DNA from: Chrysogorgia sp. JL179-B06
Taxonomy: Eukaryota > Cnidaria > Anthozoa > Scleralcyonacea > Chrysogorgiidae
Assembly (NCBI GenBank): GCA_035772405.1
Contig: JAYKKM010000439.1
Span: 5,222,001-5,286,000 of the forward strand
DNA: 64,000 bases
Reading direction: 5' to 3'
Below the pieces are notes generated by a model, which worked only from the letters and a program-made list of their open reading frames with translations, ran no database searches and was not told the origin of the DNA. Every line of letters starts with the position of its first letter. Within the stretch, counting starts at the first letter, position 1. Made by a program: the position numbers and the translations under genes. Shown one piece after another: positions 3,786 to 58,455 of this stretch.

Positions 3786-4117
3786 TGTTATGAGGATTAT
3801 GAACTCGGGTGGTGAATAATAATGATTTTTAAATGGCTACTCCGAGTGACGAACCATACCGGACAAGTAGAGAAAACTCTACTTGACCCGGCTGGGATTC
3901 GAACCCGCGACCTTCGGTTTGCTAGTCCGACGCTCTACCGACTGAGCTACAGGTCAAGTTGGGAGCAGGTGGTAGTAGAAACAGATACTAGTTTCATCAA
4001 TATCTTGACAAATAGTTTTTATACATATATATTTAATGTTATGAGGATTATGAACTCGGGTGGTGAATAATAATGATTTTTAAATGGCTACTCCGAGTGA
4101 CGAACCATACCGGACTT
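3785..4117. repeat. Duplicated segment flanking a tRNA-like sequence
   Basis: About 82 bp starting taatgttatgaggattatga is present at about 3785-3866 and again at about 4035-4117 as a direct repeat. The tRNA-like sequence lies between the copies. Confidence 0.7.
3884..3956 (-). tRNA. tRNA-like sequence, probable pseudogene or SINE head
   Basis: On the minus strand 73 bases begin tgacctgtagctcagtcggt and end ccgggtca. The A box (tagctcagtcgg) and B box (ggttcgaatcc) are intact and the acceptor arm pairs over 7 bp. The anticodon loop CTAGCAA would give AGC (Ala). The T stem pairs poorly, the first anticodon-stem pair is A-A, and a tRNA-Ala should begin GG. It is also embedded in a repeat. I read it as a tRNA-derived repeat rather than a functional gene. 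Confidence 0.45.
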
Positions 4118-6119: not shown

Positions 6120-6237
6120 TGCAACTGGTCCCGGTTTGGTCTTAAAATGTATGTATTCCAACACTCGAAATTTTCCTTCACCATAAATCATTTCAACATG
6201 TAGTTTGATCGAGTGAAATGCCAAATATTACCTATAA
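6119..6237 (+). mobile_element. SINE fragment, 5' truncated
   Basis: It holds only the non-tRNA body (starting gcaactggtcccggtttggt, ending aaatgccaaatattaccta). The full copy at 6290 repeats it nearly exactly. Confidence 0.75.
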
Positions 6238-6289: not shown

Positions 6290-6506
6290 TAGGCTCTCGG
6301 CAACGGCTTCCGTAGCTCAGTGGTCAGAGCACTGCACTAGCAATCGCAGGGTTGCGGGTTCAATTCCAGCCGGAAGGCCGTTAAGTTGCATTTTTCGCAA
6401 CTGGTCCCGGTTTGGTCTTAAAATGTATGTATTCCAACACTCGAAATTTTCCTTCACCATAAATCCTTTCAACATGTAGTTTGATCGAGTGAAATGCCAA
6501 ATATTA

Positions 6507-6555: not shown

Positions 6556-6860
6556 AGAGAACGTATTATAAAAGATGTTTTGTACTCTCTCTCAGCTAAA
6601 TTAAAGGTTTCCTTGGAGTTGAAAGATGAGCAATATTCTACAATTGATAGTTTGCTTAACGGAAACGACGTTCTAGCGGTATTACCGACGGGATACGGGA
6701 AAAGCCTTATCGACTTTTGGTTCTCATAAGTAAGATCGAAAAAGGCCAACCATGGGCCAACCGACTTCTGGTCTCGCTGTATGTCCTCTTAGAAGTATTG
6801 TAGACGACCAAGTTGAAGAGCCTAAGGCGTAGAGGTTTCAGTGTTTTCTTCGTACTCATA
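6556..6860 (+). pseudogene. RecQ-like DNA helicase fragment
   Basis: Reading from 6556 gives LKDEQYSTIDSLLNGNDVLA followed by VLPTGYGKSLI, the Q-like motif and Walker A (motif I) of RecQ-family helicases. The frame stops at 6729. A second piece at about 6780 reads CPLRSIVDDQVEE, matching the next conserved block (PLxSIxxDQ). Frame changes and stops show it is dead. Such RecQ-like copies are common in cnidarian genomes, perhaps as parts of mobile elements (inference). Confidence 0.7.
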
Positions 6861-7469
6861 GGAATTAGCTTCGCAATTTATAATATATGTTGACAGTTAG
6901 TAAAAGGGTCAAATTACGGAATGTTCCATCATAATATACAATTGCTTCGTTCTATTTTAAAACCCCATTTAATTTGATAACTATCGACAAGTACACACAA
7001 TATAAACATTCGACATTATATTTAAAGAGATTTTTAGAGCAACCTGGTTTGTATTTCTGCCTTTAAATGCGGTTTCAAAAGTGGACGGGCATTCTATAAT
7101 TGCTCCAAACCTTGCACTATCGACAGAATTTCACCCTTTAGATTTTTAGATGGCATAAATAGATTTTCTGTTGATATGGACTTCAAAGTATCACCGTACA
7201 TGACGTTCAATGACACTTTACATCATATACAGTAGCCGTTTTCTCCCCCCGAACATGATTTTATCGATATTTTTTTAACAACCGACATGCTGTCAAAGTC
7301 TCAAAGAACATAAACACTAGCCTGCGTTCAACGCGTTCGCAATAACTTCCGGTTCGCGCTAATTGGCTAATTTTTTACAGCACGTTGATGGAGCACTTTG
7401 AGGGCGGGAAGCAAAGTTGTGTGGGATGCGTGCAGGCTCTCCCTCCCCAATTTTCCGCCCTCTGCTCCC
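6861..7469. other. Intronic non-coding stretch
   Basis: No gene recognised. It becomes more GC-rich towards 7400-7469, just before the transposon. Confidence 0.5.
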
Positions 7470-7475
7470 CGGGAG
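7470..7475. repeat. Left target-site duplication cgggag
   Basis: Six bases directly outside the left terminal repeat, identical to 20476-20481 outside the right one. Confidence 0.9.
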
Positions 7476-7538
7476 TATGGGGCGCCAAGTGTTACTTTAT
7501 TATTTAGCGTAAATAGTGTCACTTTTTCCTGATTTATT

Positions 7539-8037
7539 TGGTTATATCAAATAACCAAATTTACTGAGATAGTTTAAGTTGGTTATATCAAATAACCAAT
7601 TCAATGCTATTTGGTTATTTCAAATAACCAATGTTTAGGACATGGCTTAATTTGGTTATTTCAAATAACCAACTCAATGCGATTTGGTTATATCAAATAA
7701 CCAGTTCTCCCGCGTTGGTTATTTCAAATAACCAATGTTGATGAAATTTGGTTATATCAAATAACTGCTGATTTAAGTTGGTTATATCAAATAACCAATG
7801 TTTATGACATGGCTTAATTTGGTTATTTCAAATAACCAAGTCGACGCGATTTGGTTATATCAAATAACCAAAATAATTTCGTTACACTTGGCACACTGAT
7901 TTAAGTTGGTTATATCAAATAACCAAAATAATTTCGTTACACTTGGCGCACTGATTTAAGTTGGTTATATCAAATAACCAAAATAATTTCGTTACACTTG
8001 GCGCACTGATTTAAGTTGGTTATATCAAATAACCAAA
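7539..8037. repeat. Subterminal palindrome array, left
   Basis: Thirteen copies of GGTTATATCAAATAACC or GGTTATTTCAAATAACC, alternating with short spacers, one of them with a mutated end. The last ones sit in 55-bp tandem units that also contain cgttacacttggc, an inverted echo of the element's tip (gccaagtgttac). Such subterminal motifs usually bind the transposase (inference). Confidence 0.85.
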
Positions 8038-8059
8038 ATAATTTCGTTACACTTGGCAC

Positions 8060-8139
8060 ACATGAGGTCCAAAGGTCATTCAGAGGAGAATACGATCACG
8101 TGACTCTCTTCGTTAGCGCGCCTTTTCCAACTCTCCGTC
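8060..8139 (+). promoter_or_regulatory. Probable promoter of the integrase gene, with palindromic E-box
   Basis: A CACGTG E-box at 8097-8102 lies 38 bp before the start codon and is conserved in the other arm. No TATA box is obvious. It is placed between the palindrome array and the ATG, so transposase binding could regulate it (inference). Confidence 0.4.
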
Positions 8140-11100
8140 ATGGCGAACACACCGAATAGAAACGTTCTCGCAAGATCTTTGACAGAGGCAATTGGCAGAG
8201 CAATCAACCTAACTTTAAGTGCTACAGAGGTAAGTGTTCCTCTCATAAACAAAAGTTTTGCGCCGTTCTCCACTTCAGTTGGCTAATTTGATATTCATTA
8301 ATCCAACTTTGTCGAGCATGTTTATAATGAGTTATGAAGGATTATTCGCTCTCATTTCGTTTCTCATGACGTTTGTTATAGTTACCAGCGCAAGAAAGTG
8401 CTGCTGCTAATGGGCAAGAAAGTGCTGCTGCTAATGGGCAAGAAAGTGCTGCTGCTAATGGTATTAACAACACGGTGAGCAGTTATTTCAAATTAATGAA
8501 TATAATTCAAGGCAGTGTGACCGGTAAAAATTACCAAATTTGGCAAAAAATTACTACATCATAACCCCCCCCCCCCCCCCCCCCCCCCTAAATGGTGAAA
8601 ATAACGTCGTAATGTGAACATTTTCTACAAAATTAATGTCAAAATTTACAGATTAAGTTATTAACATTAACATTAACAGAAATAGGAAATTAAGAAAACA
8701 AAATAACAAATGCAAGACATATGATCGTAGAATCTTTGAAATAATATAATCATTGCTCCAAGCTGTATAGTTGTTAGCATCCTCATGCGGCGCATCGCCA
8801 TACACTGCCTCAACATTAGCATAAATGCTGTACTTCTCAGTGACAATAAATTAGAAATCATGAAAATTTCAAAAAATTACCAATATTTTACCAAAATTAC
8901 CAAAAATTACCAAAGTAATTACCACAAATTTTTAATTACCAAAATTTTCCAAAAATGTTGAAAAATTACCAAAAGTAATTTAAATTACTACGTCTGGTCA
9001 CATTGATTCAAGGTCTATGTTCAAGGCAATCCGTAAATGACATCCCCTCAGTCTTTGTCTTGTCACAAAGCACACAGAGGGGAGGGGTACCATAATAGCA
9101 TACAAAGAGGGGGGGGGAGGGTGTGAAAAATTGCCGAAATTTTGCGTGCGTACTACAGAAATAGTGTTGTGTATAAAACATTGGTATTGCAGAAGACTGG
9201 GTAAGAGTTCCTCTATTAAACGGTTGACACCTATATTTAGCGGACACTAAATAAATCTCCAAAGGTGTCTGTTTAATACAGGTTTGTCTGTAGCAAAATA
9301 AGTTGGGGTCCTTTCTCATGCTGGAGTCCCAGTGCAATTTACCCCAGTTGCCTCTCCTCTGGCCAGGCCTACAGACAGGAAGTAACACCCTAAACATTTT
9401 AAGGGGAAATAAAAACTAGAATGTATGTTTTGTTGAAGCAATTTGCTATATGCAAGTGTTTTTATCATCATTGCCAATGAAGAGATCCAAAAATTAGCTA
9501 CTGTACGTATATGTGTATACATGAAAAAGTAACAGTATACATGAAACAACCCTTTCCTCCCTGATGTTGCCAGTTAAAATTTTATTCTGACTAACATTAA
9601 CAATCCGTTGATTTTGGAGCAAGGGCTAATCCAGCCTCATTTTGCAGGGGAGGTGCAGATTTCCCAGGGGGGTGCAGATGAATGGCTTTAACTTGTATTA
9701 GTGCTAACCATATTTGGAAATTTAATTTAGTAAGACAGATTTAATATTAGAGCTGCTCAATTGCCAAACATATCATTCATCACAGAAAGTGATCGATCTT
9801 TCCCTGCCTGTTCACTCCGTCAGAGAAAAATTTTGTTTGATGATAGAATACCTCAAGTTTTGTCTGTTTTCTTTCATATACTGAAGATTATACTATAAAT
9901 TTAACTTACCATGTACTGTACTTTCATGTGTAGGATTCCACCCTGGATATTGATTCAATTGAAAGGTATGTAATATGTTTATTGATGTACAGTAATTGGG
10001 ATTAATGCATGGGTTTAATAATATTAATTTTATAAATGCATTGTCGGGACTCTTGACTTTAGATATTTAGAAATATTTTTTGCTAATTTAGCCCCTAAGC
10101 GAGGAAAATGGTGTTTGGATATCAGAGTGAAAATCTAATCAATATAGTGAACTTGCAGCTTGATTTTCTTTCCAATTCAGAGTAATGTGTTAAACCTTGG
10201 CTCAAACACTTATTATATGGTTTATTCCAGACACTTATTTCAAACACTTATACAGATGGTTTATTCCAGGACAAAATTTTGTTGGACATATTTGGTTCCT
10301 ACAATATTTAATTTTAACAGTAATTTTGACTAAGGGATTTACATCAGTAAAACAAGTTCTACAATAACTATACATGTTTATGTCTCCTTTTCAGCAATAA
10401 CCATTCCCGAAAAGCTGGTAGACCTAAAAAAATCATTCCAAAGAATCATTTAGAAAATCTTCTTAGACTTAAAGTTCCGATTGCTAGCATTGCAAGGCAA
10501 TTTGGATTGTCAAGACGAATAGTATACAGATGCATACAAGAGCATGGACTTAACTATTCCAGGTTTTCTGATGAGTCCCAACCAGAAATTGAAAGAGCCG
10601 TGGTGACTGCAAAGCAGAAACACCCAAATTCTGGAGAAGTCATGATCCAGGGACACCTTGCATCAGGTGGACTGCATGTCCAAAGAAACAAGGTACGAGA
10701 AGCAATCCATGCTGTAGATCCTGAGGGCGTTCAAGAGAGAAAACAGAAGCCGATTAAACGCCGGGTTTATTCAGTCCCATGCCCCAATTATGTGTGGCAC
10801 ATAGATGGGAATCACAAACTTGTCCGTTGGAGGTTTGTGGTCCATCACGGTATTGATGGTTTCAGTAGATTGGTGGTTTTTGCACGTTGTTCTCCAAATA
10901 ATCGAGCAGCCACAGCCCATTCAGTGTTTTTGGAAGCACTTCCAAAATATGGCAGGCCACTCAGGGTAAGAACAGACCACGGTGGTGAAAATGTGGATAT
11001 ATGGCGTGATATGATTGCTGCAAGGGGTGAAGCAAGTAAGCCTGTGCTTGTTGGCAAGTCAGTACATAACCAGCGCATTGAGAGGCACAACCGTGCACTC

Positions 11101-11559
11101 AATGAACAAGTCATGTCCATGTTCAGAGGTGAATTTTACCAGCTGGAGAGTGAAGGTGTTCTGGATGTTAATAACGATACAGACATACTGTGCCTCCATT
11201 ATGTCTACTTACCTCGCATTAACCAAGTGCTTGATGAATTTGTTGCTGCCCACAACCATCATAAAATTTCTACTGAGAAGAATAAAACACCAGAACAGTT
11301 GTTCTGGTGCAATGTACGTTTGGCTGACTATCATCTTGGTGTTTTACCAGAACATGCCCATCAACCAGACATGAATGAGCTGATGACAAGGGATTTGCCA
11401 CATGTTTCGGTTGCTGAGACACCTAATCCATTAGATGAAAATATTTTAGGTGAACTTGGTCAACTACTTGGGTCTTTGTCAGGTGTTGAAGGCATGCTTG
11501 CCTATCGGCAAGTTGTTCAATTTGTTGGGCAGCGCATGCTTAGCAATGCAAATAATTAA
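8140..11559 (+). CDS. IS3-like DDE integrase (transposase), four exons
   Basis: Exons 8140-8229, 8382-8474, 9934-9965 and 10395-11559 have GT-AG introns and phases 0, 0 and 2, giving 459 aa. The start is the ATG at 8140, conserved in both arms. After a low-complexity segment (QESAAANG repeated three times) comes a basic helix-turn-helix region (about residues 73-120: HSRKAGRPKK, IARQFGLSRRIVYR). The integrase core follows, with Asp209 in WHIDGNH, Asp266 in RTDHGGEN and Glu301 in NQRIERHNR, a DD(34)E spacing as in IS3 and retroviral-type integrases. It should cut and join the element's ends in the nucleus. It converges on the HECT gene. A hAT MITE sits in intron 2 without touching the exons. 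All catalytic residues are present and no stop interrupts the frame, so it may be active. Confidence 0.88.
8513..9005. mobile_element. hAT-type MITE inside the transposon's left arm
   Basis: It begins cagtgtgacc and ends ggtcacattg, with the 8-bp duplication attcaagg at 8505-8512 and 9006-9013. The right arm lacks it, which gives an empty site. It contains a poly-C tract and many aaattacc units. hAT elements have 8-bp duplications and CAGNG tips. Confidence 0.85.
9052..9933. other. Intron 2 of the integrase gene, remainder
   Basis: AT-rich intron sequence with two G-rich stretches (about 9079 and 9110). No further gene seen. Confidence 0.6.
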
Positions 11560-12255
11560 AAGAACAGTAATATATTTTTAAATTATTGTATTATGCTTAT
11601 AATCTATAATATATCAAGGGTTTGAATACATAATAAATCAGTACTGTTTTTTGTTTTTCCAGGGTTATGAGCTGATGATATAAAAATGCCATGTTTGCTG
11701 GCACATGCTACTTCAACTGTGATCAAATCGTTCTAAGGCAGTTGATAAGCAAATTTGTTTTGATAACATATACATTATATTAACATTGTTGTAATACTTG
11801 TTGTTTGTTTATTGTACAAGCTGGATAGTTGGAAAAATTCAGAAAAGCTTTTTTCCTGATTTATTCCAACAAACCCAGCGTACAACAAACAAAAATTATT
11901 ACTGACATCAACATGCAAGTCCTGAAACAAAATGTTTTATATTGTTGGATTTGTTTTCAATTTGTTTTCGTTGCTGATAAAACTGCCTATAACAACTTAT
12001 GTTTAAAATGCGTGGTTACAATTTGATTTGCAAGTTCAATGTCTCAAATTCTTATAGATTGAATTCTTTTTTACAACCAATTGCAACAAATAACAAGAAC
12101 AAGAATTTGGAAACAGTGCAATATAAAAAATATGGAACCAAATTTTTTAATAAGAGGCCTCCATGCATGTGAATCATGTGATTACATGCACTGCAGGTGA
12201 TGTGAACAATGTGATGGTTGTTAGTACAGCTCAAACTCTGTTTAATAGTGTCAGT
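11560..12255. other. Intergenic region between convergent transposon genes
   Basis: AT-rich and without supported ORFs. It should contain both polyadenylation sites: aataaa-like motifs occur on the plus strand (ataataaatca at about 11629). Confidence 0.5.
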
Positions 12256-15200
12256 TTATGCAACACCAAAGGTTGGTGAGTTTTGAATAGCATCATCCAT
12301 GTAATATTTGAATGTTTCGTATGAAATTTCATCAGTGATTACATTATGAAGTGGGAGAAACAACACATTTCCACAGGTGTTACTCCTAGGGCGCACATCA
12401 TTCCAGAATTGAATAGTTGGGCCAGGCTGAAACCCGAGAGGAGGGATTTCACTTGCTCCCGTTGCAAATACTAGAATGTTCTCCAGTGTCATTCCAGATT
12501 CTGTTCCCGTACAATCTAAAAAATAGAATGTCAAATCAGTTATTCATGATGTCAAGCCATGCTGAAACAGATCATTTAACAAATTGATCTTTCTCAATAT
12601 ATGAACAAACCGAAATCCAACCCTAACCCAAATCCTAACCCTAAAACCAACTTGGGTTGATGCTATAATAATTTTAAATTTCGGTTGCTCATATCGAGAA
12701 AGGGCCCAAATTGTACTAAGACCCATTCACAAGGAGGGACCTGCAAAGACAGAGTTATAAATACATAATTTGGCTCTCACTAGGTTAACCTCAGTATTTG
12801 AACATTATTAAAACCAGGTGTCAAAGGGAGCATCGACACTATTAGGACCAATTTAGGTATTACTGTACCCTGGCATTCTTGCAGATAATCTCGCCAATGC
12901 ATGATAATTAACTCTTCTCTTTCTCTTTGTCTGGTACCTTCTTCTGAATAGACAGGTGTGAAAGTGACATTAACAATTCCAGAAGTTAGTGATATTGTAT
13001 TGTGGCAAAAGCATCCATGAAATAGGTTAGGATGCTTTTTCAGGAGGTGAATAATATTCAATGTTGCCAGACCCTCCTTGAATTGCTCGAGAGCGGATCG
13101 CATCTTGTCAATTACAAAGAAATGACATAATTCTTTCAATATGAGATCTCGGTTGTCAAACTTTGGAAGACCTGTGTACCCAGCTTGTCCAAAGCAATCA
13201 ATAGCAGCATCAGAGCTCGCTACTTCAATAAATGATGATTCATCTTTGCAACTAGAAATCTATATTGAAATTCATTAAAAATTAAAGTTTTAAAAGTTAT
13301 GATAATGTATCCATTCTAGTCATGCCTACTATTGCATTGGCTTAACTACAAGTACAGTATTATAATAGTATACAGTCAGGTACTGTTGATACACATTGAA
13401 ACATGTTACACAATAAATTCTCCTCTTCACTTACTGTAGGACCAGAACGAATGTTACCACAGTAAATTTTTATTTTTGGTATTTGAATTTGGTGGGATTC
13501 TTATTACATAAAATGTGGCTCATGACCGAGTCTGGAACATACAGTACACACCCTTGCAGTTGCTTGAAGATACGAATTTTATCTTCTTGTGGTAAAAATA
13601 ATATTTTACTCATTCGTAAAATATTGTTTTCACCACTCAATACAATACATATCTTCGCACCACCATGTAATTTCCTCTATACCTGTACAGTATATTAATG
13701 GCAATAAATTGAAAAAAAACAAAAAAACATTTTTTCTTGGCAAAGGCCAGCTTATTGGATTCTGTACTAGGGGAAATGCAGCAGTATAGGAAGCAGAGTG
13801 GAGGGTGCGACACCCCCCAAGTATTGTCTTATTTGTTCGAGTTGCTTGATTTCAGTCAGCACTCGTCAGCTAAATAAATTTCACATGATGTAAATATATT
13901 TTACGATTATGGTGTTATATTGCATTATACTCATTCACTCGTCAGCTTGATCACGCTTTTCGATGAGAGTGATGTAATTTATTAATTTATACCATAAAAT
14001 TGCTTGAAAATCATGAAGTTGTTAGCCTTTGTTACCTGCAGTCCTTACAGACTTACATGTACGTATTGTAATTATTGTCACGTCTATTGTGCCTTTAATC
14101 GTGTTTCCATGAAGCCTGTAACTTAAGGCAAGTTTTTTGCACATCTACTGTAGGGTGATCTAGCTGACTAGCTCAGAGTTTTAGTTGCATGCTATCGAGT
14201 GATTTCAGTGGTATTTTTCCATACCAAATTGGTGCTAACACTGTCTTGTTTTGACTAAGTATTGCATCAATGTACATGTAAACCGTTATAAGTTAAAGTT
14301 AGAACTGTTGGTTTTCTATTATCTGTATACAGTATAGTCATGATTCTCACGTAGAATGTGGTTTTTCGGGTGAATTTCCATATAAAATACCGAAATGACG
14401 TCATATGGACTATCGGTAGTAAAAGTCAAAATTAAAATCAACTGTTCTTAAATAAAACATTATAGTTGGTAAAAGGATTAGGGTAAGGTTTGGGTTAGCC
14501 ACTATGTTTTAAATTTGGGGATATTCATATGGAAATTGAGCCAGTTTGTCACTGTTATTGGAAATAAATGTTTTGTGGCTTTTCGGAGTATGATAGAAAA
14601 TTAAAACATCAAATTTATATATTTGTACAATGGAACATAGGTACACAAGTAGTATTTTTTAATATAAAGTATGAAATGGTGAGACAAATAAACAGAACTG
14701 AGGTTTTTGTGACAGTTGGCCGAATTGAGTGTACACCCCCTGCAAAACAATCTATCTGAGTATGGCCCTGATAGGAAGGAATAGGTTTATGTTTATTCCT
14801 ACCTGTTGCAAAACATCCTTAATGGTAACATCATGAACATCATCGATCCCAGGGTTGCATTTATTTTCACCACGGACGAAAAAGTCATACATACATTGCG
14901 CAAGGCAGTGGCCAACTCCTCCACCGTTGCACAAAGAAATAGCCAATAGTTTTCCACAAAGATTATACAAATTTCTCCTCTTTGCTGAAAAAATAATAAT
15001 TTTTTGGATGTACAATTAGAACATGCTACTGTAAATAAGAAATGTTCCCGTTGAGTTTTAGAAGCTCTTGTGGAATTTTTAGAGAACTTGAAATTGTGTG
15101 TTAACACCTGTTCCGCCCTGTGGGCTTGCAGTTATCCCACTTAGCTTTCATTTATTGTTTGTGCCAACTTCCACTCGTACTCCTATAACTACTGTACATG

Positions 15201-18200
15201 GAAACACGAGAAAATGTTTTCTACTATATTTCTGAAATATACTACGAATCTAATTTTACAAAAGAAATGCATCATACTAAGTCATTGTTTGGTCTTAGAT
15301 GAAGTAATTAACTTGTCTTGACCTCCATAAACATGCACACATATACAGTAACCTACAGTATTCACATAACATGGAAAACAGGCTCACACTTAAATGTACA
15401 GTGTATGTGTACTGTATGTTAAATTTCACAGCTAAAATTAAGATCAAATTACAACATACAGTACAGTACCTTCTTGGTTTAAAACAATTACTTTGTTGTT
15501 TCCTGGTCCCCCAAATCCATTTGACATGAACATGCCACTTACTGCAAGTCGAAGAAATTCTCGGGTTGGACCACCAAGGTCCACTGCACCTTCACTTGAA
15601 CCGAGTTCATCTGCAAATCTTACAGAGAGTGGGAGAGATGGTTGAAAATTAGGTCGTCCAATTTTTCTTATTCCATCTACAAACACATGTTTCCGTCGAA
15701 CATTGATGATGTTTTTGGACACTTCTAAGTCAGATGCTTGTCCTGCCATCACTTCTTTAACATGTTCACCCAGAACATGCTCCAGTGTCTCACTTTCTTC
15801 TTCACAGCAACTGTAAGGGAAGTAGGTAAAAATCAAAGAGTTGTTAAAATATGAAATAACAAAGTTTTTGCTTTATTAGTTTAGCACCTCAACACAGCAC
15901 TTACATTGCTTGGGTGGTTAAACTGTTTTCTATTGCAGTCTGTAGTTCTTGATCGTTTTCATCATCGCTTACTTCAATTGGATTTGATGGGAGCAAACCC
16001 AAGTATGACCTACAAATGCAGTCAGAACAAAATATAGTAATATGAGGACAAGATGTATGATGCCCATATCACTATTTTTAGGTTAGAAAGAAAGGTTCTG
16101 TAAATAAATGTTTTGTTGTCAACAAGATTTTCCATCTTGTGACGTCACAGCGCAAATTATATAAAGCATAATAATTCAAGAACAGGACAACATATAAAAA
16201 GCATATAAAAGCCATTTTTCATCATTTTAAGTGCCATTTCAAACGTAAAAAAACTGGGGCGAATTTTCATTTTATAGACACTTTAAAGGCACCACATCAA
16301 TATAATGATACCGGTAAAGAGCCTCCATGAAAGTGATCCCATGGTGGGGATAAATGCCACAGCATAAATGAATAATACTAATATTTCAGTTAGTATTACA
16401 GATTTCGATTTATCTTTCCACAGTTGAGATAATGTAGTCTTTTTGTTTCATAAAAATGTGCCTCCATTTTGGTCACACCCAATCCCATGCTCATTCGACC
16501 TATTTTTCGTTTGGAGTAAACACACTCCAAAATACAGTAACTATGAATTTAAAAAAAAAAGTGCATACATGTACAGTATATATATATATATATTTTATCT
16601 ATGAAAACACAGCATATACTGTGGTATTTAATTGTTAATGTATAGCACCTGTACGACGTGCTCTCTCCAGAATTGAATGTTGTGGTTGCTATGGAAGAGA
16701 TGCTAGATCCATGTGGTGCTTGGGAATATATTATTGATGGTGAATCAGGCTGTGAACCAAGATTTTCCATTGATGTTGTTGCAGATGGAGAAGGAATGGT
16801 AAGTGTATGTACAGACCCAGAATTGCTATCCGCTGTCGATGGAAAACCTGTTTGTGATCCAAAAGTATCAGCATCCTGTTCGTCCTAGAAATAATTTGAA
16901 CAAAATGAGACAAGTGAAGTCTCTCATTGTTGTGTTTGAAAAGCAGTTAAGTGGATTGACTTGAGATTGAGCTTGAATGACCCAAATCTGCTTTATGTAA
17001 TTAACAGGGCCTTGCAGTAACCAGGCATGCCAGGGATCATTTTCAGCAATCCAGGGATTACAGTATTTTACTGAAATCTGCCAGACTCTTTAATCCCGTG
17101 CCTTTACCTAGGAACCACCCTCTTTTATTTTAATTTTGTCATATACAGTATACTAGGGTACTGTACCTGTACAAATATACTTAAGCATACATTAATTACC
17201 TGCCCCTGATGTACTGTATAAAATTATACTGTAGGTAAAGTGAGAACTGTTAACATTGTTTTTACTCCTAATCCCAACCAAAACCCCTAACCTCATAACA
17301 TTTAATCCAACCCAACCCCTAAAAACAAAAAAATCTCCATAAACATAAAGTGATTAATAATACCTTTGTCCTCCATCCGAAAGATAAAGCAAAATTGTAA
17401 ACTAGTACTACTGCAATCCTAATTAAAGAAACTTGCCCTTGTCTGAGAAACCACAAACTACAGCAAATAATCTATCTCACAAGCTATGGGTTAACATACC
17501 TGTATTTGTATCTCATTCAAATCATTTCCTTTTCGATCAACAGGGTTAATTTTCGCCAACAAATAAAGACAACCTTGTGAGCACAAAGATATGACTTCAG
17601 GTGCATTCCAGATAAACGACCGGGAAGTGTTTGGGATAGACAGTTTCTTTGTGCCAGGCATAATACTAAAATAAATAGTCTACTGTTAATTATCATATCA
17701 CATAACAGTTTTACAGCAAGAACCTAAAAACGATGTGCCACTCATATTGAATACTACATCAATGTATACCAAAACTGTAGCTACATGTAGCTTTAATAAC
17801 TGAAATTGTGAATGGCAATTAAGCATTAAAGCAGCAATGTTTCAATGTTAAAAACAGACTATACGCTGCAATATTACTGACATTTTAGTAATTAAAACTA
17901 TCAGAGACTCATGGGCAATTCCATGCTTAAATGTACTTTTTATGATTTCTTAAGTTAAGAAAAAGCCCTTAGTGGTTAAGGAAATGTTATCCTCTTTATG
18001 CTTTTCACTTTTCAGCTATAAAAATGTCTAACTTTATTGCCAATCCCCTATCAAATTGGGTAACTTTGGGACCAAATATTAATAAAGAAGAAAATGAGAC
18101 AAAGATGTAACAGTATGGCTTCTGTGCAATGTCTGTTAAACACAAATTTGTTATTTATTTAAAAAAAAAATAAAATTTATCCAACATGTTACCGTACCTT

Positions 18201-19835
18201 AAAAAGTCAAATGATAAAATTTCTCCTTCAGGGAGATTAAAAGCTTTTGAGAAAACACTGGAAATTTCTCGAATAACCTCTCCAACTTTCCACGCAGAGT
18301 TTATCGACACTTTTCCAATTAAGCCCATTTCTGCCAATTGAGCTCTTTTGCCTCCTCTTGGTATGGGAATATCTGTCATATCTTCAATAGGCAATAGGCA
18401 TACAACATCTTTTGTGTAAACCTTTGAAGCTTTGGGCTGGCACGTAACAGATCTTTTTCTTTTTACTGGTCCCAATGGAAACATTCCTCCTAGTACTGAT
18501 GGGAGGGGAGTCTGCAGGAGAAAACAATATGTCCCAGTTTATTAAACACACTGCACAATAACATCAGCACATTAACATTTAACTTATACCCTACGTCCAC
18601 CCTCCTTCTATCTCTTCAATCTAATGGTTACATACCTGCTTGTTTTAGCATAACTGTACATACAGTACCTAATGATTGACAATACAAGTACATTTGCTAC
18701 TGCACATTATCTTACCGGTTGGGTACTAGTTGTTCCATCTGCCCGAATTGTTGATTGTCTGAGCGGTGTTTCATGTGATGTACTGCGCATTGGTGGCATT
18801 GACTGAATACAAGAAAGATGAAAGAAAAATAATAATTTGGTTAAGAATGTGTGTGGTTAGCTGAAAGTTTGTCATGCTAATTTCTTTGCTAATTTCTTTG
18901 CTTCTTTTTCTTTGGTAGTTCAATCACTTAAGCGCAGTTATTTGTGTGACTAATTACCATGTCCATTGCAATTTAATATTGCTCAGATTTGGCACTATTA
19001 ATTTCTTTCATTGGAGTTTTTCAGCTTACAGAAACTATTAGAGATACCACAATTACAAACTATTATTTATTGAGTTTGTTCTAAATTTCTAGTTTTTAAT
19101 TTCCCTTTTTAATTTTTATGTACAGAAGGGCATTTGTCAAAAAGCATTTTACTTCCAGATCAGCACGAGAAAGGCCCCCAATTAATTAGCTATGGTATTT
19201 TAATATACGAGAATAAAGCCAGCCCGGTATATGCCTGAGGGGATGTTAACAAAAGTCATTTAGTATTTACGGATTGGGTTGAATTTCCATATAAAATCCC
19301 GAAATGACGTCACATAGACTATCGGTAGTAAAAGTCGAAATTAAAATCAGCTGTTATTTCTAAAATAAAACATTATCGTAAGAGTTAGGGTTAGTATATA
19401 TTAGGTGGAGGGTTAGGGTTAGGATTAGGGTAAGGTTTGGGTTAGCCACTATGTTTTAAATTTGGGGATATTTATATGGAAATCGAGCCACGGATTGCCT
19501 TGAATTATATTCATTAATTTGAAATAACTGCTCACCGTGTTGTTAATACCATTAACAGCAGCACTTGCTTGCGCTGGTAACTATACAAACGAAATGATAG
19601 CGAATAATCCTGTATAAGACAACGTGGCTTATTAACCGTGGTTCCATTCATTAACATGCTCGACAAAGTTGGATTAATGAATATCAAATTAGCTAACTGA
19701 AGTGGAGAACGGCGCAAAACTTTTGTTTATGAGAGGAACACTTACCTCTGTAGCACTTAAAGTTTGGTTGATTGCTCTGCCAATTGCCTCTGTCAAAGAT
19801 CTTGCGAGAACGTTTCTATTCGGTGTGTTCGCCAT
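12256..19835 (-). CDS. HECT-type E3 ubiquitin ligase carried by the transposon, eleven exons
   Basis: Exons in transcript order: 19746-19835, 19536-19580, 18716-18802, 18198-18511, 17500-17665, 16649-16884, 15905-16009, 15470-15810, 14803-14984, 12869-13259, 12256-12515. All introns are GT-AG, every phase matches, and the total is 738 aa. Residues 1-45 come from the right terminal repeat and nearly match the integrase N-terminus. A Ser/Thr-rich region follows, then a UIM-like motif (about 327-343, ENDQELQTAIENSL). The HECT domain runs from about 410: VRFADELGSSEGAVDLGGPT, later GKLLAISLCNGG, then IPPLGFQPGPTIQFW and the catalytic Cys700 in NTCGNVLFLP. It should pass ubiquitin to substrates through Cys700. 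HECT proteins resembling G2E3 are abundant in fish and cnidarian genomes, and this shows one as transposon cargo. Its role in transposition is unknown. Confidence 0.85.
14369..14542. mobile_element. MITE with ggtgaatttccat ends, copy 1
   Basis: The ends ggtgaatttccatata and atatggaaattgagcc are inverted. The interior has cgaaatgacgtca and atcggtagtaaaagtc. It lies in the intron between HECT exons 9 and 10. The flanks ggtttttc and agtttgtc may be a decayed 8-bp duplication. Confidence 0.65.
19277..19489. mobile_element. MITE with ggttgaatttccat ends, copy 2, intact duplication
   Basis: 213 bp, with acggattg directly on both sides (19269-19276 and 19490-19497). The left arm of the host transposon shows the empty site (caatccgtaaat). 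The interior includes ttagggttaggat stretches that resemble telomeric repeats. Confidence 0.85.
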
Positions 19836-19916
19836 GACGGAGAGTTGGAAAAGGCGCGCTAACGAAGAGAGTCACGTGATCGTATTCTCCTCTGAATGAC
19901 CTTTGGACCTCATGCG
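19836..19916 (-). promoter_or_regulatory. Probable promoter of the HECT gene, with palindromic E-box
   Basis: Inverted copy of 8060-8139. The CACGTG lies at 19873-19878, 37 bp before the ATG. Both genes probably share regulation. Confidence 0.4.
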
Positions 19917-19937
19917 CGCCAAGTGTAACGAAATTAT

Positions 19938-20412
19938 TTTGGTTATTTGATATAACCAACTTAAATCAGTGCGCCAAGTGTAACGAAATTATTTTGGTTA
20001 TTTGATATAACCAACTTAAATCAGTGTGCCAAGTGTAACGAAATTATTTTGGTTATTTGATATAACCAACTTAAATCAGTGGTTATTTGATATAACCAAA
20101 TCGCGTCGACTTGGTTATTTGAAATAACCAAATTAAGCCATGTCATAAACATTGGTTATTTGATATAACCAACTTAAATCAGCAGTTATTTGATATAACC
20201 AAATTTCATCAACATTGGTTATTTGAAATAACCAACGCGGGAGAACTGGTTATTTGATATAACCAAATCGCATTGAGTTGGTTATTTGAAATAACCAAAT
20301 TAAGCCATGTCCTAAACATTGGTTATTTGAAATAACCAAATAGCATTGTGTTGGTTATTTGATATAACCAACTTAAACTATCTCAGTAAATTTGGTTATT
20401 TGATATAACCAA
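19938..20412. repeat. Subterminal palindrome array, right
   Basis: Thirteen GGTTATTTGATATAACC or GGTTATTTGAAATAACC motifs in inverted order relative to the left arm, including the same single degenerate copy (agttatttgatataacc). Confidence 0.85.
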
Positions 20413-20475
20413 ATAAATCAGGAAAAAAGTGACACTATTTACGCTAAATAATAAAGTAACACTTGGCGCCCCATA

Positions 20476-20481
20476 CGGGAG
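20476..20481. repeat. Right target-site duplication cgggag
   Basis: Identical to 7470-7475. Confidence 0.9.
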
Positions 20482-31802: not shown

Positions 31803-31990
31803 AAAGGATTTATGGTGAAGGAAAATTTCGAGTGTTGGAATACATACATTTTAAGACCAAACCGGGACCAGTTTACCCTGGGTGCCAGAGGTTCTTCCGA
31901 AAAATGCAACTTCAAGGCCTTCCGGCTGGAATTGAACCTGCGACCCTGCGATGCTAGCGCAGTGCTCCGACCACTGAGTCACGGAAGAGC
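31803..31990 (-). mobile_element. tRNA-derived SINE, inverted copy
   Basis: Reverse complement of the family: body first (aaccgggaccagttt), then the tRNA-like head ending cactgagtcacggaag. It forms an inverted pair with the copy just to the left, and a (TA)n follows. Confidence 0.75.
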
Positions 31991-33086: not shown

Positions 33087-33906
33087 GCAACATTCACCAG
33101 AGCCTGTCTCAGTCGCGAATTCAGTTTTTAACTGCAAAATTGATTATCAAACAATTATTATTATTTCCGTGACGAACCGCTGAGAATCAATTGTAAGTTT
33201 GCGGGCGGTATATAGTAATCGAGGAAATAATTTCTTCAACCTTACTCATTAACTATTTGTTCGTCTGCAAACAAATGATTCTTAGCGATTGCTGACGGAA
33301 CCCGTGCGACGGAGAGCACAAAACAATTAATCAACAACGTTTCCTGACTGGCTCATACATTACTTCTTTTCACGGGCTGTATTACATTATTTGTAAAAGG
33401 TGAGTTTAGATTAACCTACAAACAGGCTTTTAGCCAGAATTTCAAAACTGGCCGTTCAAAAATTTTTGTCGGCGTGGCCGTGAGCAAGTGAACTTATCAA
33501 ACGTATTGAACAGCGGTTTTATTAAACAACGTTTTTGCTACTTCATGTTAGATCATATACATATACGTTAAAGCGATCCGCAATCAATGGTCATATCTGC
33601 ATGTTCTTGACAAAAATTAGTAACGAAACAAACACAATAGCTAAAATAAACAGCTGCAGCTAATATAAATCAAGAAACATTAAGGGGGAAACCTGTAAGT
33701 TGAAAATATTTTGCTTAGGCAATCCGTGGTCGTCAATACGATAAGTGTCCGTCCAAAATTCCGATTTCTCAAAAGTGGCCGGCTGTCTTGCTAAAAGCCT
33801 GCCTACACATCAGTATATAAGATATTTTATTAAACTTCAGACTTTTTGTAAGTCTAAATTTTAAGAAGTAGAACCTAAATGGAAAAAATCGTATTGAATA
33901 ACTTAC
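33087..33906. other. Intronic stretch without recognised features
   Basis: AT-rich sequence after the MITE duplication. No supported feature. Confidence 0.5.
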
Positions 33907-34119
33907 CTAATTCTTTGATAGTATACACTCTATGAGAGTGGGATAAAAAGTGAGATTCAACACTTCCGTTAGTCGAAGCATTGTTATCGTCTAGCACTAG
34001 CCTCCACGATATTCGATATTTTTGTATTATTCCGTTAGGATCCCGCGGTGGACTCCATCGAACTACGATAGTTGTTGAAGAATTCTTACTTCCGGTAACG
34101 TTAGACGGTTGACCAGGAT
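33907..34119 (-). CDS. FN3 exon, first half of a domain
   Basis: 71 codons between ttacag and gtaagt: PGQPSNVTGSKNSSTTIVV, then RWSPPRDPNGIIQKYRISW. It pairs with 32129-32221. Confidence 0.85.
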
Positions 34120-34214
34120 CTGTAAGGACCATGATAAGGAGAATTGATATAAATGACAAAAAAACAACTTCAATGGCGATTTTTATATTAAATAATAATG
34201 ATAATAATGAAATA

Positions 34215-34637
34215 TACCGTATTTCCTCTAGTAAACGCCTAGCCTCAAATAAACGCCTCCCTCTATTAAACGCCACACACATCAGAGCGGCGTTTATTAG
34301 AAAAAATACAGAAAGTGCAATATCGTTTTGTTCCTGTTTTGTTATTTGTTCCACAAAACATTTGAGAACACTTTAAAGCCTACACAGTGTGGCTTCATTG
34401 TCGAAGTGATGTAAACAACTCAGTTTAAACTAGCCATTGTTAAAGTTAAATAAAGTAAAGTAATAATAAAAGTAAAAACGAAAAAAGAACTCGACCAACA
34501 TCCTTCTTATCCGGACCTCGCGCTCGGTAAATCACATATTGTTTAATAAACGCCTCCCTCTAAAAAAGGACCCCTCTAATAAACGCCGCATCAAATTGTT
34601 CCAAAATTTAAGATTGTTTATTAGAGGAAATGCGGTA
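34215..34637. mobile_element. MITE with taccgtatttcctcta ends
   Basis: taccgtatttcctcta at the left returns as tagaggaaatgcggta. Several taaacgcc units lie inside near both ends. TA flanks both ends, so the insertion may be TA-specific. Confidence 0.6.
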
Positions 34638-47745: not shown

Positions 47746-49065
47746 TTATGTTGAAATATAACACCAATAGTTTCTTTTGAAACAAGTAATAGAATCAGAG
47801 TCTTTGATGATAGAAGGTAGGCTATTATAAAGTTTGGCAGCAGAGAAAATAAACGACCTATAACCAGATTTAGAAGAGATATTTGCAAGGTGTAAATTAT
47901 GCCTGTTTCTAGTATTATAGTTATGTATATCTGAGTTGCGAAGAAATATATTCTTGAGGTATGACGGGCAAAGCGCATTCAAACATCTAAATACGGTAAC
48001 ACATTTATGATATGACCATCTAGCATCAAGCGTTACCCAACTTAACTGCTTAAAAAGAGTAGCAGAACGTTCTTCCCTAGTTCTCTTCATTAAAATGATG
48101 CGAGCGCCTCTCTTTTGAAGCTTCGATAATCTATTCAGACTTGTTTGGTCAGCATTTGACCAAATAATGTCACAATAATCATATAAAGGCTGAATCAATG
48201 TGCCATGTATATACCTGGCAACATCTGTACTAAGATATTTTCTAATTCTTCTAAGTACACCTAATCTCTGTGAGATCTTAGAACTAATATAGTCAATATG
48301 ATTTTTCCAGCTGACCGAAGAGTCAAATACTAATCCTAAGTATTTAAAAGAATCAATATGCTCGAAAAAATTGGATGAAATAGATAAGAGAAGTCTAGAA
48401 ACATTAGATAAACGTTTTTTAGTTCCAAATAACATGACTTTAGACTTATTGCAGTTGACAATTAACTCATTATCGATAAACCAGGAATTTAGCTGATTAA
48501 GATCCGATTGTAAGACAGATTCAATTTTTTGTACATCTTTATGTGCAAAAAAAATAGCAGAATCGTCAGCATATAAAGCGACTTTACTCTGATGAATATT
48601 GAGCGGTAGATCATTAATAAATATTATAAATAAGAGAGGACCAAGCACAGAGCCCTGGGGAACTCCTAAAGATAAATCCATAGCATCTGACAAGGCACCA
48701 TTAACTATTACAGACTGCGTTCTATTACTTAAATAATTATCGAACCAGTTCAAAGATGATCCTCTGATACCCAAATTATTTAGTTTGTTCTTCAAGATGG
48801 CATGATTAATGGTGTCAAATGCCTTGCTTAGGTCAAGAAATACTGCTCCAATCAATTTCTTATCATCAATGTTTCTTAAGATAAAATCTGAAACATCTAA
48901 AAGGGCTGATGAAGTAGAGTGTCCTGCTCTAAAACCAGATTGAACAGGTGAGAGTAAATTGTTTTCAGTAAGATGTTTATAAATCTGTGTATGAACAGCA
49001 CGTTCGAATATTTTCATCACCACCGGAATAACTGATATCGGTCTGTAGTTATTTGGATCAGACAA
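47746..49065 (-). pseudogene. LINE reverse transcriptase domain
   Basis: An intact frame of about 440 residues: SDPNNYRPISVIPVVMKIFE, SGFRAGHSTSSALL, AVFLDLSKAFDTINH, GVPQGSVLGPLLFIIFINDL, KVALYADDSAIFF (catalytic YADD), FKYLGLVFDSS, then the C-terminal connection (RLSKLQKRGARIIL) and SAAKLYNSLP. These are CR1/L2-group motifs. The protein would start upstream in the endonuclease frame, where the sequence IVTPLHKSG precedes this ORF in frame, so the split from the endonuclease is a mutation. Confidence 0.85.
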
Positions 49066-49091
49066 CGAACCACTTTTGTGTAGAGGTGTTA

Positions 49092-50909
49092 CTATAGCAG
49101 TTTAAACAGGTTAAATATGTAGGTCAGAGGAGATGCCAGTACGTTAGCTCCGTCCTTAAGCATTCGTGTATGTATATCCTTCAATCCAGACGCTTTTTTA
49201 ACGCATAACAAGGACAGATATTTTTGTACGTTATCTATTGAAATATCCTTAAATTCAAAATCAGGAATCTCTTGACCATCAAGAACATTTGGAGTCCCGA
49301 ACAATGAATCAGATTGTTGTCTGGGATTTAACAAACGCTTAGTAATCGAAGTAAAGAACTTATTGAAAGCATTTGCTATCTCAAAGTTATCATTATAAGT
49401 ACAGCCATCAAGTTCGATGTGTTGTATAGCTGTTTTATTCTTCTTCGGAATTAATTTTCGGATAGTAGACCACAATTTACCGGGATCATTTTTATTATCT
49501 TGAAGCAAATCATTAAAGTAATGACTCTTGGCAAGTTCAATAAGTCTTGTGACTTTATTTCTTTGATTTCTATATAAGTTCCAATCCTCTTCCAATTTGT
49601 ATTTGACTGCCTTGCGTTTTGATAGATCGCGCTGTTTCATGGCTTGCCTGATTTCATCTGACATCCATTCTGGTTGTTTGCTACGTACCCTAATTTTATG
49701 CAGTGGTGCGTGTATATTCCCAATTTCTTTTATTAATAGTTCCATAATAGACCAGGCATCATCAGGACTGTCAAATAAGTAAACAATATCCCAAGGTTGA
49801 TTTCGCAAGTCAGTTAAGAAGGACGTTGATTTATAATTTTTAAAACTACGGATGTTAATCACTTTGGGCCTGGATTTGGGCACCTTGCATGATCTATTGC
49901 AATAAACTAAGTAATGGTCACTTAGTGAGAGATTCACGACACCCGAATTTGTTACGCGATGAATAGTATTTACGAAGATCAAATCGATGATTGATGAAGA
50001 ATTCGCAGTGACCCGAGTAGGTTCGTTAATCAGTTGTTTCAATCCCAAATCACTCATTAATTTCAAAAATTCCTTACCCTTTGGACAATGGATGTCACAG
50101 TTGAAATCACCAAGCAAATATACTTCAGAATCATCAAAGTCTAATAAATCCAAACAACTAAGAAATTGTTGGTAGAAATCAGCTTTGTCGGGTGGACGAT
50201 AGACAGATGCGATTAATAGAGGCCGGCTTTGTGGAAATTTTAAATTGCACAACACCATTTCAATATCCTTGTAATCACTTGATAGTAAAACACGATCAAA
50301 CAAAAGATGATCGTGTAAGTATAAAGCAGTTCCGCCGCCATTACGATTTCTATCTCGTCGTTCAATGTTGAAACCAGTAATCTCAACTTCTTCATTTGAT
50401 ATAGCTGGATCCAACCAGGTCTCACTCAAAGCTACAATGTCAACTTTATTTGTACCAACAAACTCCCGCAATTCCTCAATGTTTTTAAGCAGGCTTCTGA
50501 TATTCAAATGAACTATTTTTAAACCTTTTAGTCGTTTCAGCTGAGTAACTCCTGATATAACGGGAGAATCAAATTCGGATGAATTTGAGTCTGAATGAGA
50601 CGGACCAGGGTTCAGATCAATATCATTCGATAATAACAGGATAACGCTGAATAGGTATCTATCCAAAGAGACCGGGGTACAAGCGAAAGTTGCCACATTA
50701 CTTCGACGAACTGCTCTTGCATGATTCAGTGCTTGATAGTTTATTCGTGTAAACTTGGCCAAAACTTCCTGCCCACAACGAGAAATGGACCCAGTAGCTG
50801 ATTCATAGGAGCAATATGTACCATCAATATCAATAAAGTAAATAGAACTTGAAAGTAAACGAATTAAACAGCATAAATTGAGAGCGAGCAAGATACCTCT
50901 TACCGCCAT
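49092..50909 (-). pseudogene. LINE endonuclease and linker domain
   Basis: The ATG at 50909 starts [20 protein letters not shown], then [11 protein letters not shown], a marker of CR1-group ORF2 proteins. The APE-type nuclease follows: [49 protein letters not shown] and [10 protein letters not shown], with the catalytic Glu, Asp and His present. The linker ends [11 protein letters not shown], where about 35 bp seem to be missing before the RT frame. A longer frame continues 5' into the minisatellite only because 9-bp units keep frame. Confidence 0.82.
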
Positions 50910-56159: not shown

Positions 56160-56299
56160 TTAACATTTTCGTTCACCTTACTTACCCGTTTGGTTGGTTA
56201 GGTGTAAGCTGTTGGCCGAGGGGGCCTTGGACTGGAGCGAGTAGTGGTACTTGGATTCAGGTTAAGATCCAACCAGGTGGTATCTTGAACTGACCACCC
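56160..56299. repeat. 140-bp direct repeat, copy 2
   Basis: See 55751. The 33-bp satellite begins about 90 bp later. Confidence 0.85.
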
Positions 56300-56388
56300 A
56301 AAGTGATGCGGAGTATCACCCTTCCAAGTACCGATAAGAGCTCTTTACTGTTTACAACGAGGTTACGGTGGATGTTCCAGATGAAGTG

Positions 56389-58455
56389 GTATCTCGTTGG
56401 GTAGCATACCCAGATACATTGGTGCAACTGTGGGTAGCATACCCAGATAAATTGGAGCATCGTTGGATAGCATACCCAGATAAATTGGAGCATCGTTGGG
56501 TAGCATACCCAGATAAATTGGCGCATCGTTGGGTAGCATACCCAGATAAATTGGCGCAGCTGTGGGTAGCATACCCAGATAAATCGGAGCATCGTTGGGT
56601 AGCATACCCAGATAAATTGGCGCAACTGTGGGTCGCATACCCAGATAATTCGGAGCATCGTCGGGTAGCATACCCAGATACATTGGCGCAACTGTGGGTA
56701 GCATACCCAGATAAATTGGAGCATGGTTGGGTAGCATTCCCAGATAAATTGGAGCATCGTTGGGTAGCATACCCAGATAAATTGGCGCATCGTTGGGTAG
56801 CATACCCAGATACATTGGCGCAACTGTGGGTAGCATACCCAGATAAATCGGAGCATCGTTGGGTAGCATACCACCCAGATAAATTGGAGCATCGTTGGGT
56901 AGCATACCCAGATAAATTGGAGCATCGTTGGGTAGCATACCCAGATACATTGGCGCAACTGTGGGTAGCATACCCAGATAAATTGGAGCATCGTTGGGTA
57001 GCATACCCAGATAAATTGGAGCATCGTTGGGTCGCATACCCAGATAATTTGGAGCATAGTTGGGTAGCATACCCAGATAAATTGGAACATCGTTGGGTAG
57101 CATACCCAGATAAATTGGAGCATCGTTGGGTAGCATACCCAGATAAATTGGAGCATCGTTTGGGTAGCATACCCAGATAGATTGGCGCATCAGTGGGTAG
57201 CATACCCAGATAAATTGGAGCATCGTTTGGGTAGCATACCCAGATAGATTGGCGCATCAGTGGGTAGCATACCCAGATAAATTGGAGCATTGTTGGGTAG
57301 CATACCCTGTGTGGTTATATACCCAGATAGATTGGCGCATCAGTGGGTAGCATACCCAGATAAATTGGCGCATCAGTGGGTAGCATACCCAGATAAATTG
57401 GCGCATCAGTGGGTAGCATACCCAGATAACTTGGCGCATCAGTGGGTAGCATACCCAGATAGATTGGCGCATCAGTGGGTAGCATACCCAGATAGATTGG
57501 CGCATCAGTGGGTAGCATACCCAGATAAATTGGCGCATCAGTGGGTAGCATACCCAGATAAATTGGCGCATCAGTGGGTAGCATACCCAGATAAATTGGC
57601 GCATCAGTGGGTAGCATACCCAGATAGATTGGCGCATCAGTGGGTAGCATACCCAGATAAATTGGCGCATCGGTGGGTAGCATACCCAGATAAGTTGGAG
57701 CATCGTTGGGTAGCATACCCAGATAAATCGGAGCATCGTTGGGTAGCATACCCAGATAAATTGGAGCATCGTTGGGTAGCATACCCAGATAAATTGGAGC
57801 ATTGTTGAGTAGCGTACCCAGATAAATTGGAGCAGCGTTAGGTAGCATACCCATATTAATTGGAGCATCGTTGGGTAGTATACCCAGATAAATTGGCGCA
57901 TCATTGGGTAGCATACCCAGATTAATTGGAACATAAATTGGAGCATCATTGGGTAGCATACCCAGATTAATTGGAACATAAATTGGAGCATCATTGGGTA
58001 GCATACCCAGATTAATTGGAACATAAATTGGAGCATCATTGGGTAGCATACCCAGATAAATTGGAACATAAATTGGAGCATCATTGGGTAGCATACCCAG
58101 ATTAATTGGAACATAAATTGGAGCATCATTGGGTAGCATACCCAGATAAATTGGCGCGTTGTTAGGTAGCATACTCTGAAAAATTGGCGCATCGTAGGGT
58201 AGCATACCCAGATAAATTGGAACGTCGTTGGGTGGCATACCCAGATAAATTGGAGCATTGATGGGTAGAATACCCAGATAATATAGGCGCATCGTTGGGT
58301 ATAGCCTGCCCAGATAAATTGGAGCATCGTTGGGATAAATTGGAGCATGGTTGGGTAGCATACCCAAATAAATTGGAGCATCGTTGTGTTGCGTATAGCA
58401 CGCCAAGATATATAAATTGGAGCATCGTTGTGTGGCGTATAGCACACCCAGGTAA
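56389..58455. repeat. 33-bp minisatellite, about 60 units
   Basis: The unit is ttgggtagcatacccagata followed by aattggagcatcg. Each unit has a tgggt-agcat-accca hairpin. Sub-blocks differ: gcgcatcag units fill 57300-57680, and 57910-58140 has a longer compound unit with ttggaacataaattggagca. A 33-bp period leaves long open frames on both strands, which I do not call genes. Confidence 0.95.

Follow-up and report, generated by a model that had tools for sequence, protein, structure and literature searches.

An IS3EU-type transposon of Chrysogorgia with a predicted HECT ubiquitin ligase gene and a repeat-encoded N-terminus common to ligase and transposase

Transposons of the IS3EU / GingerRoot type encode a DDE integrase-like transposase, have TA..TA termini and are usually flanked by 6-bp target-site duplications, as outlined in the available text of PMC10045372. 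In the fungal TET-carrying IS3EU elements, according to the accessible parts of PMC12730594, the termini read TAYGG..CCRTA, the duplications are 6 bp long, an alpha-kinase gene lies opposite the transposase gene and a TET/JBP gene lies between the two; accessory enzymes are thus already known in IS3EU. Here we describe an IS3EU-type transposon of 13,000 bp from the octocoral Chrysogorgia sp. JL179-B06, which spans positions 7476-20475 of the stretch analyzed (the window: 64,000 nt, assembly GCA_035772405.1, contig JAYKKM010000439.1, 5,222,001-5,286,000 of the forward strand) and whose second gene is predicted to encode a HECT-type E3 ubiquitin ligase. It is very probable that this is an autonomous IS3EU-type unit in which the ligase has an accessory role. 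Its features are as follows.

7470..7475: left target-site duplication CGGGAG
7476..8514, + strand: left terminal inverted repeat with tip TATGGGGCGCC, from inverted-repeat blocks I1, I2, I12, I15, I22 and alignment
7539..8035: left-repeat array of GGTTATn1-7ATAACC (12 palindromes), candidate binding sites
8140..8229, + strand: transposase exon 1, shared N-terminus encoded in the inverted repeat (MANTPNRNVLARSLTEAIGRAINLTLSATE)
8382..8474, + strand: transposase exon 2, within the repeat; holds three 24-bp tandem units
9934..9965, + strand: transposase exon 3
10395..11559, + strand: transposase exon 4, helix-turn-helix and DDE core (rva_4)
10804-10806, 10975-10977 and 11080-11082, + strand: codons of the DD34E triad D209, D266 and E301 in exon 4, counted by hand
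12256..12515, - strand: HECT exon 11, catalytic Cys700 (codon 12373-12375, counted by hand)
12869..13259, - strand: HECT exon 10
14803..14984, - strand: HECT exon 9
15470..15810, - strand: HECT exon 8, HECT domain begins
15905..16009, - strand: HECT exon 7, UIM-like motif DDENDQELQTAIENSL (by eye)
16649..16884, - strand: HECT exon 6, linker
17500..17665, - strand: HECT exon 5
18198..18511, - strand: HECT exon 4, part of the folded N-terminal domain by alignment with the soft-coral protein P0001
18716..18802, - strand: HECT exon 3
19536..19580, - strand: HECT exon 2, within the right repeat
19746..19835, - strand: HECT exon 1, shared N-terminus encoded in the inverted repeat (MANTPNRNVLARSLTEAIGRAINQTLSATE)
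19496..20475, - strand: right terminal inverted repeat, from inverted-repeat blocks and alignment
20476..20481: right target-site duplication CGGGAG

An earlier note on this DNA had described a single intact mobile unit, and this description stands: CGGGAG occurs on both sides, both genes are open, and the outermost 52 nt of the two ends are a perfect inversion of each other (the 53-nt arms 7475-7527 and 20424-20476 each include one flanking base). The inverted repeats are about 1 kb long and interrupted, with blocks that are 95-100% complementary, and the left one contains the palindrome array, a presumed promoter and transposase exons 1 and 2. The palindrome was counted 12 times in the first 1000 bases of the element, 12 times in the last 1000 and not once in between. 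Both ends carry the tip TATGGGGCGCC, that is, TA..TA in the fungal form TAYGG..CCRTA, and 6-bp duplications were found here and at eight other independent sites. The transposase gene (four exons, 1380 nt) encodes 459 residues with no stop before its end; its product matches rva_4 (E 6.1e-70), rve (5e-6, which is below the curated cut-off of rve) and weakly a helix-turn-helix domain in Pfam. The integrase-like DDE core has a retroviral-integrase fold, and 34 residues separate D266 and E301 (DD34E). Termini, duplication length and transposase core fit IS3EU membership, and the term IS3-type, which the earlier note had used, is apt in the sense of this eukaryotic superfamily.

Convergent to the transposase gene, on the minus strand, lies the open HECT gene, whose 11 exons comprise 2217 nt and encode 738 aa. 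Its ten introns all run GT..AG and its phases close, as had been claimed, and the catalytic Cys is Cys700. The two-lobed HECT domain is complete (Pfam HECT at residues 452-737, E 1.4e-9), with Cys700 in the C-lobe being kept in 10/10 related loci. Ligase function, including ubiquitin transfer, is predicted from the sequence. The splicing was checked with tblastn blocks of the closest fetched copy, C165 (relatives are named by contig), which cover residues 73-178, 178-248, 314-346, 352-462, 462-523, 519-652 and 653-738 and stop close to the exon ends predicted at 74, 178.7, 312.7, 347.7, 461.3, 522 and 652.3, except that block 178-248 extends beyond 234. The UIM-like motif of the earlier note is visible by eye in exon 7 and likewise in the proteins P0001-P0003; no Pfam UIM was found at E<=10. 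For the folded N-terminal domain (residues ~105-223 of the ligase model) the VIA and Foldseek lists were filled by HECT matches, and no PHD-like fingers (PF13771/PF13832) precede the HECT domain in the window ligase or P0001. Two HECT introns contain repeats that are shared inside the element (14365-14543 and 19274-19490, blocks 91% and 97%); these copies are either later insertions or an internal duplication.

Relatives of the element were sought in the genome (781 Mb scanned, 522 contigs), where the transposase search gave at least 104 matches (103 of 1549 candidates scored). The tip search suggested by the earlier note was productive, since 111 exact 17-base tips were found against 0 for the reversed control, which excludes chance for the element ends. 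Among the 100 tip places listed, 21 inward-facing and no outward-facing pairs were observed within 20 kb: 15 span 1.4-3.5 kb and are non-autonomous, resembling miniature inverted-repeat transposable elements, one spans 8.4 kb and five span 10.3-16.4 kb. Thirteen of these 100 tips lie within 130 kb at C421:1,081,000-1,211,000, where complete and non-autonomous copies seem to be nested.

Ten transposase loci, picked from the 104 matches for a high score and no stop in the match, were studied with 20 kb around each. HECT exons lie downstream of the transposase and inside the inverted repeats at all of them; the HECT gene is plainly convergent in 9/10, whereas the tenth, C47, is an inverted duplication and has parts of HECT on either strand. 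As C70/C518 and C5/C391 share flanks, the ten loci represent 8 sites. Exact 6-base duplications flank C165, C70, C231, C5/C391, C202 and C47, with one mismatch at C518, and exact duplications at C399 and C395 were read by eye from the boundaries. The tips are TATGGGG in C165, C70, C231, C5 and C202, TATGAGG in C47 and C395, and TATGAAC/TATGGAAC in C399; C47, C395 and C399 thus keep TA..TA, but do not have TAYGG at each end. The palindrome recurs at both ends in three of the eight relatives examined (C165 6+6, C231 11+12, C202 7+8); none was found in C70, C5, C47, C399 and C395. The C47 element itself (C47:6714903-6734902, L042/L043) is 16 kb long, has the exact duplication TACCCT and carries 3.5-kb inverted repeats with a transposase gene at both ends; judged from this arrangement, it is an inverted duplication of one half.

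The proposal that HECT belongs to the standard gene set of this lineage is upheld by these loci (10/10 fetched) and by the whole-HECT-protein search (at least 65 matches; 61 of 1149 candidates scored), in which 19 of the 25 exon-type HECT loci listed have a convergent transposase within 15 kb. No sign was seen of a fixed genomic place for the exon-type HECT gene, which the earlier note had named as an outcome that would tell against it, though six of the 25 loci are without a listed transposase nearby. The HECT matches listed miss the known-positive loci C202, C5, C391, C47 and C395, and absence from them is consequently weak evidence. Furthermore, 19 single-frame (intronless) HECT loci of 27-33% identity were listed (for example C263:3848786-3849922 and C56:702299-703528); this set may comprise retrogenes, another HECT-bearing element or domesticated copies.

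An empty site that reduces to a single duplication, as the earlier note had anticipated, is established for a relative and fits the window element weakly. The relative C202 has clean empty sites which retain a single GTCAAA: when its flanks are joined with one GTCAAA, four other places match all 360 bases at 99%, each being 360 bases long, and two further places match at 91%, while the occupied site matches the joined flanks as two halves (1-180, 174-360) about 10 kb apart. At the site of the window element six unoccupied copies of a host repeat were found, five of which read CGGGAGAGCC (CGGGAG) and one CAGGAGAGCC (CAGGAG); these are consistent rather than decisive, as the similarity on the right stops after AGCC. 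The host repeat around the insertion (left flank 6976-7475; copies L046-L051), of which about 40 matching copies were scored in the genome, ends in a GC-rich hairpin GCAGGCTCTCC..GGGAGAGCCTGC. Close to it, ~6670-6710 resembles, by eye only, the RecQ helicase Walker A motif LPTGYGKS.

A feature that the earlier note had overlooked is the N-terminus common to both proteins. Exon 1 of either gene lies within an inverted repeat, and ligase and transposase consequently begin alike, with MANTPNRNVLARSLTEAIGRAIN-L/Q-TLSATE; in the window element exon 2 is likewise repeat-borne in both genes. A matching first reading frame was present in both repeats of 9/9 elements examined (DNA identity 90-100%), followed by a GT donor at the chosen frame end in eight of them. 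The N-terminal sequences vary among lineages, and a short helix pattern recurs (LARSLTEAIGRAI, LARSISSAIERAV, LSRTISEAVSRAI, LGRIVANAVSNFL). The same shared start was encountered in the soft coral Dendronephthya gigantea, whose HECT protein P0001 (annotated as G2E3-like) and transposase P0082 agree at 52 of the first 53 positions. Both are encoded on contigs of 2,314,301 bases, presumably one contig, and their identity to the window proteins is 45% (over 55% of the query) and 48%, respectively; the structure model of P0001 has a helix at residues 6-20 with modest confidence. Linking an accessory enzyme to a transposase through a common N-terminus that is encoded in the inverted repeats is unusual.

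The HECT gene seems to be under purifying selection about as strong as that on the transposase gene. Between the window element and C165, the Nei-Gojobori ratio of nonsynonymous to synonymous substitution (dN/dS) is 0.118 for HECT (593 codons) and 0.111 for the transposase (417 codons), ratios that are rough with a dS of 1.4-1.7; dS was computable for few other pairs (three beyond C165). Transposase and HECT protein distances correlate over nine elements (r 0.66, p 0.0009), with C47 left out as a rearranged near-copy of C395 and C5 kept with only 253 HECT residues. The HECT tree joins the window element and C165 with a protein of the octocoral Xenia, for which half of the columns are filled, and C395 and C47 with Dendronephthya, so that at least two element lineages occur in both the Chrysogorgia genome and other octocorals; vertical descent and horizontal transfer are both compatible with this sharing.

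Taken together, we propose that the transposon would act through two genes of its own, a DD34E transposase and a HECT E3 ligase, which would be read toward each other from mirror-image promoters in the repeats. The transposase would excise and insert the unit through 6-bp staggered cuts, and the palindrome arrays may bind one of the two proteins. The common N-terminal helix could bring ligase and transposase into one complex, and the ligase would raise the fitness of the transposon by ubiquitinating a nuclear target. We regard it as roughly an even bet that this target is a host protein by which the element is repressed or packaged, the alternative being a part of the transposon's own machinery. 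The ligase being kept under selection close to that on the transposase suggests an active manipulation of host protein turnover, as many viruses do. A search of viral_contigs with the HECT and transposase profiles revealed no relative (22 and 4 pattern hits, respectively, 0 confirmed).

Alternatively, the ligase may ubiquitinate the transposase or the strand-transfer complex, with the helix joining both, which would provide turnover after insertion or a check on copy number. This is possible, with the chances somewhat against it: the shared N-terminal frame (9/9 elements and Dendronephthya) links exactly these two proteins and their co-varying distances fit a ligase acting on its own machinery, whereas the interaction is a predicted one, sharing of the exon would be expected as well from a need for the promoter alone, and a gene that limits its own carrier is less easily retained by a selfish element. 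Host genes do get picked up by DNA transposons, and HECT genes are common among host genes; a neutral passenger captured by chance and without benefit to the element is nevertheless highly improbable and was rejected on account of selection and recurrence, since dN/dS is 0.118 over 593 codons, the catalytic Cys persists in 10/10 loci, HECT stands beside the transposase at 8 independent sites besides the window, and an octocoral relative at 45% identity has the same shared start. Still less credence, practically none, is given to a transposase-only element next to an unrelated HECT gene of the host, the frame around them being due to chance repeats or an assembly error. The genome does contain duplicate sites (C70/C518 and C5/C391 with their shared flanks) and the inverted-duplicated C47, but mere coincidence is contradicted by 6-bp duplications at nine sites, by the clean empty sites of C202 and by the recurrence in a second species; recurrence and empty sites led us to reject it.

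Several points weigh against an autonomous unit with an accessory ligase. The unit and both of its proteins are known from sequence alone, and the 10/10 loci, selected by score and lack of stops, do not give an unbiased rate. Among the 25 exon-type HECT loci six are without a listed transposase at a distance of up to 15 kb, and so are all 19 single-frame loci, both listings being cut short. The empty-site fit of the window element depends on 10 right-flank bases, AGCC ending 4 bases past the duplication. With regard to the shared start, C395 lacks a GT at the chosen frame end, the helix motif is not evident in C70, the repeat-borne frame is presumed to be spliced onto both genes in the relatives, and the shared exon could be a by-product of promoters kept in the repeats. 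The low dN/dS values stem from one usable pair with partly saturated dS; the three other computable values are higher, at 0.21 (C202 HECT), 0.27 (C47 transposase) and 0.26 (C395 transposase), and two stops lie within the matched C202 HECT blocks, one of which may overrun its exon. Finally, the C70 transposase (L028/L029) groups with the window element and its HECT with C202, so that the two genes have not always travelled together; this points to an exchange of halves between element lineages.

The element offers a source for anthozoan HECT genes labelled G2E3-like, and with it the question of how the vertebrate heterochromatin gene G2E3 arose becomes testable. A profile of the transposon HECTs scored 258.5 bits with sturgeon G2E3 and 229.8 with toad G2E3, whereas none of the 54 HECT sequences that passed E<=0.01 in the PDB, a collection without every host HECT family, exceeded 59.7 bits. 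At its front G2E3 has PHF7-like PHD fingers, which the transposon ligase lacks. Both fingers (PF13771/PF13832) were found in toad and sturgeon G2E3, and the toad query matched PHF7 over residues 10-290 (254 bits) and no PDB HECT at E<=0.01. Since HECT alone was found in the window protein, the label G2E3-like does not denote membership. In the tree, G2E3 falls on the side of the transposon HECTs, apart from AREL1 and RSP5 (100/100, only two outgroups); it was not placed inside the transposon HECTs, and a position of G2E3 outside all others was not rejected (p-AU, approximately unbiased test, 0.328). Six long, short or duplicate rows were dropped from this tree (P0187, P0195, Xenia P0176, P0186, C5 and one of two identical Haliotis rows); including them puts C5 outside the anthozoan group. 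In the available text of Marin (PMC2837046), G2E3 appears only in the last, human, column and its origin is placed after the chordate/echinoderm split. A commentary (PMC12920882, accessible part) names G2E3 as the main ubiquitin ligase for histone H3K14, guiding or seeding (pericentromeric) H3K9me3. That the HECT half of vertebrate G2E3 descends from such a transposon ligase, by fusion of a PHF7-like PHD protein with a transposon HECT, is an idea that we hold tentatively and rate slightly below an even chance. If true, vertebrates would have domesticated a transposon weapon as a writer of heterochromatin, and the transposon ligase itself may act on chromatin to manage the silencing of the element.

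The suggestion of the earlier note that such elements explain the orphan G2E3-like genes of fish was not borne out, as no fish HECT could be tied to a listed fish transposase and the 19 single-frame loci of Chrysogorgia lie more than 15 kb from any listed transposase as well. The HECT profile search listed 79 matches at E<=1e-10 (7997 candidates scored); by eye, no fish HECT among them lies on a contig equal in length to that of a listed fish transposase (120 of 1529 transposase matches listed), and a comparison of their N-termini with those of the 120 listed transposases revealed no fish HECT with a transposase N-terminus. Besides the Dendronephthya pair this comparison gave six weak matches (7-20 residues, E 0.012-0.031), which were judged to be chance, the 7-residue match P0144 / P0113 (Brienomyrus), for example, being too short.

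Elsewhere in the window, tRNA-like sequences occur at 3882-3957, 6306-6379 and 31916-31988, two of them called tRNA-Ala; that at 6306, with its irregular anticodon loop and a tail behind it that recurs near 6120, resembles a tRNA-derived short interspersed element. An open frame at 33878-34372 (minus strand) contains a fibronectin type III domain (PF00041, E 2e-9), and one of 451 aa at 47749-49101 (minus strand) contains a reverse transcriptase domain (PF00078, E 7.5e-39) and resembles a long interspersed element. A long tandem-repeat stretch at 56260-58600, with the repeats APIYLGMLP / WVAYPDKL, can be read in several frames of both strands.

The transposase of maize MuDR belongs to a different superfamily from that of the window element. 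MuDR resembles the present transposon in its two convergent genes with promoters and start sites in or adjoining the inverted repeats; the function of mudrB is unknown, and the available text of PMC3440606 mentions no coding exon common to both MuDR proteins. RAG-like transposons are likewise animal DNA transposons with convergent catalytic and accessory genes, the accessory gene being RAG2-like and not a ubiquitin-system enzyme (PMC7204232, accessible part). The full-text literature search gave nothing that combines IS3EU and HECT, with Repbase outside the search, so that a database entry may exist, and the titles and abstract openings found by a broader search describe no HECT-bearing transposon. 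With IS3EU / GingerRoot the window element shares the DDE transposase, TA..TA and the 6-bp duplication, whereas a HECT ligase and a common repeat-encoded N-terminus go unmentioned in the accessible text of PMC10045372, a paper in which HECT or ubiquitin occurs 0 times. The fungal TET-carrying elements, as far as the available part of PMC12730594 describes them, belong to the same superfamily and also place a second enzyme gene opposite the transposase, but their accessories are a TET/JBP dioxygenase and an alpha-kinase, in contrast to a HECT ligase in an animal genome. Helitrons with VTD/OTU deubiquitinases, finally, are transposons that bring along a ubiquitin-system enzyme too (PMC9741609, accessible part): their enzymes remove ubiquitin in rolling-circle elements, whereas the element described here carries a predicted ligase in a cut-and-paste transposon.

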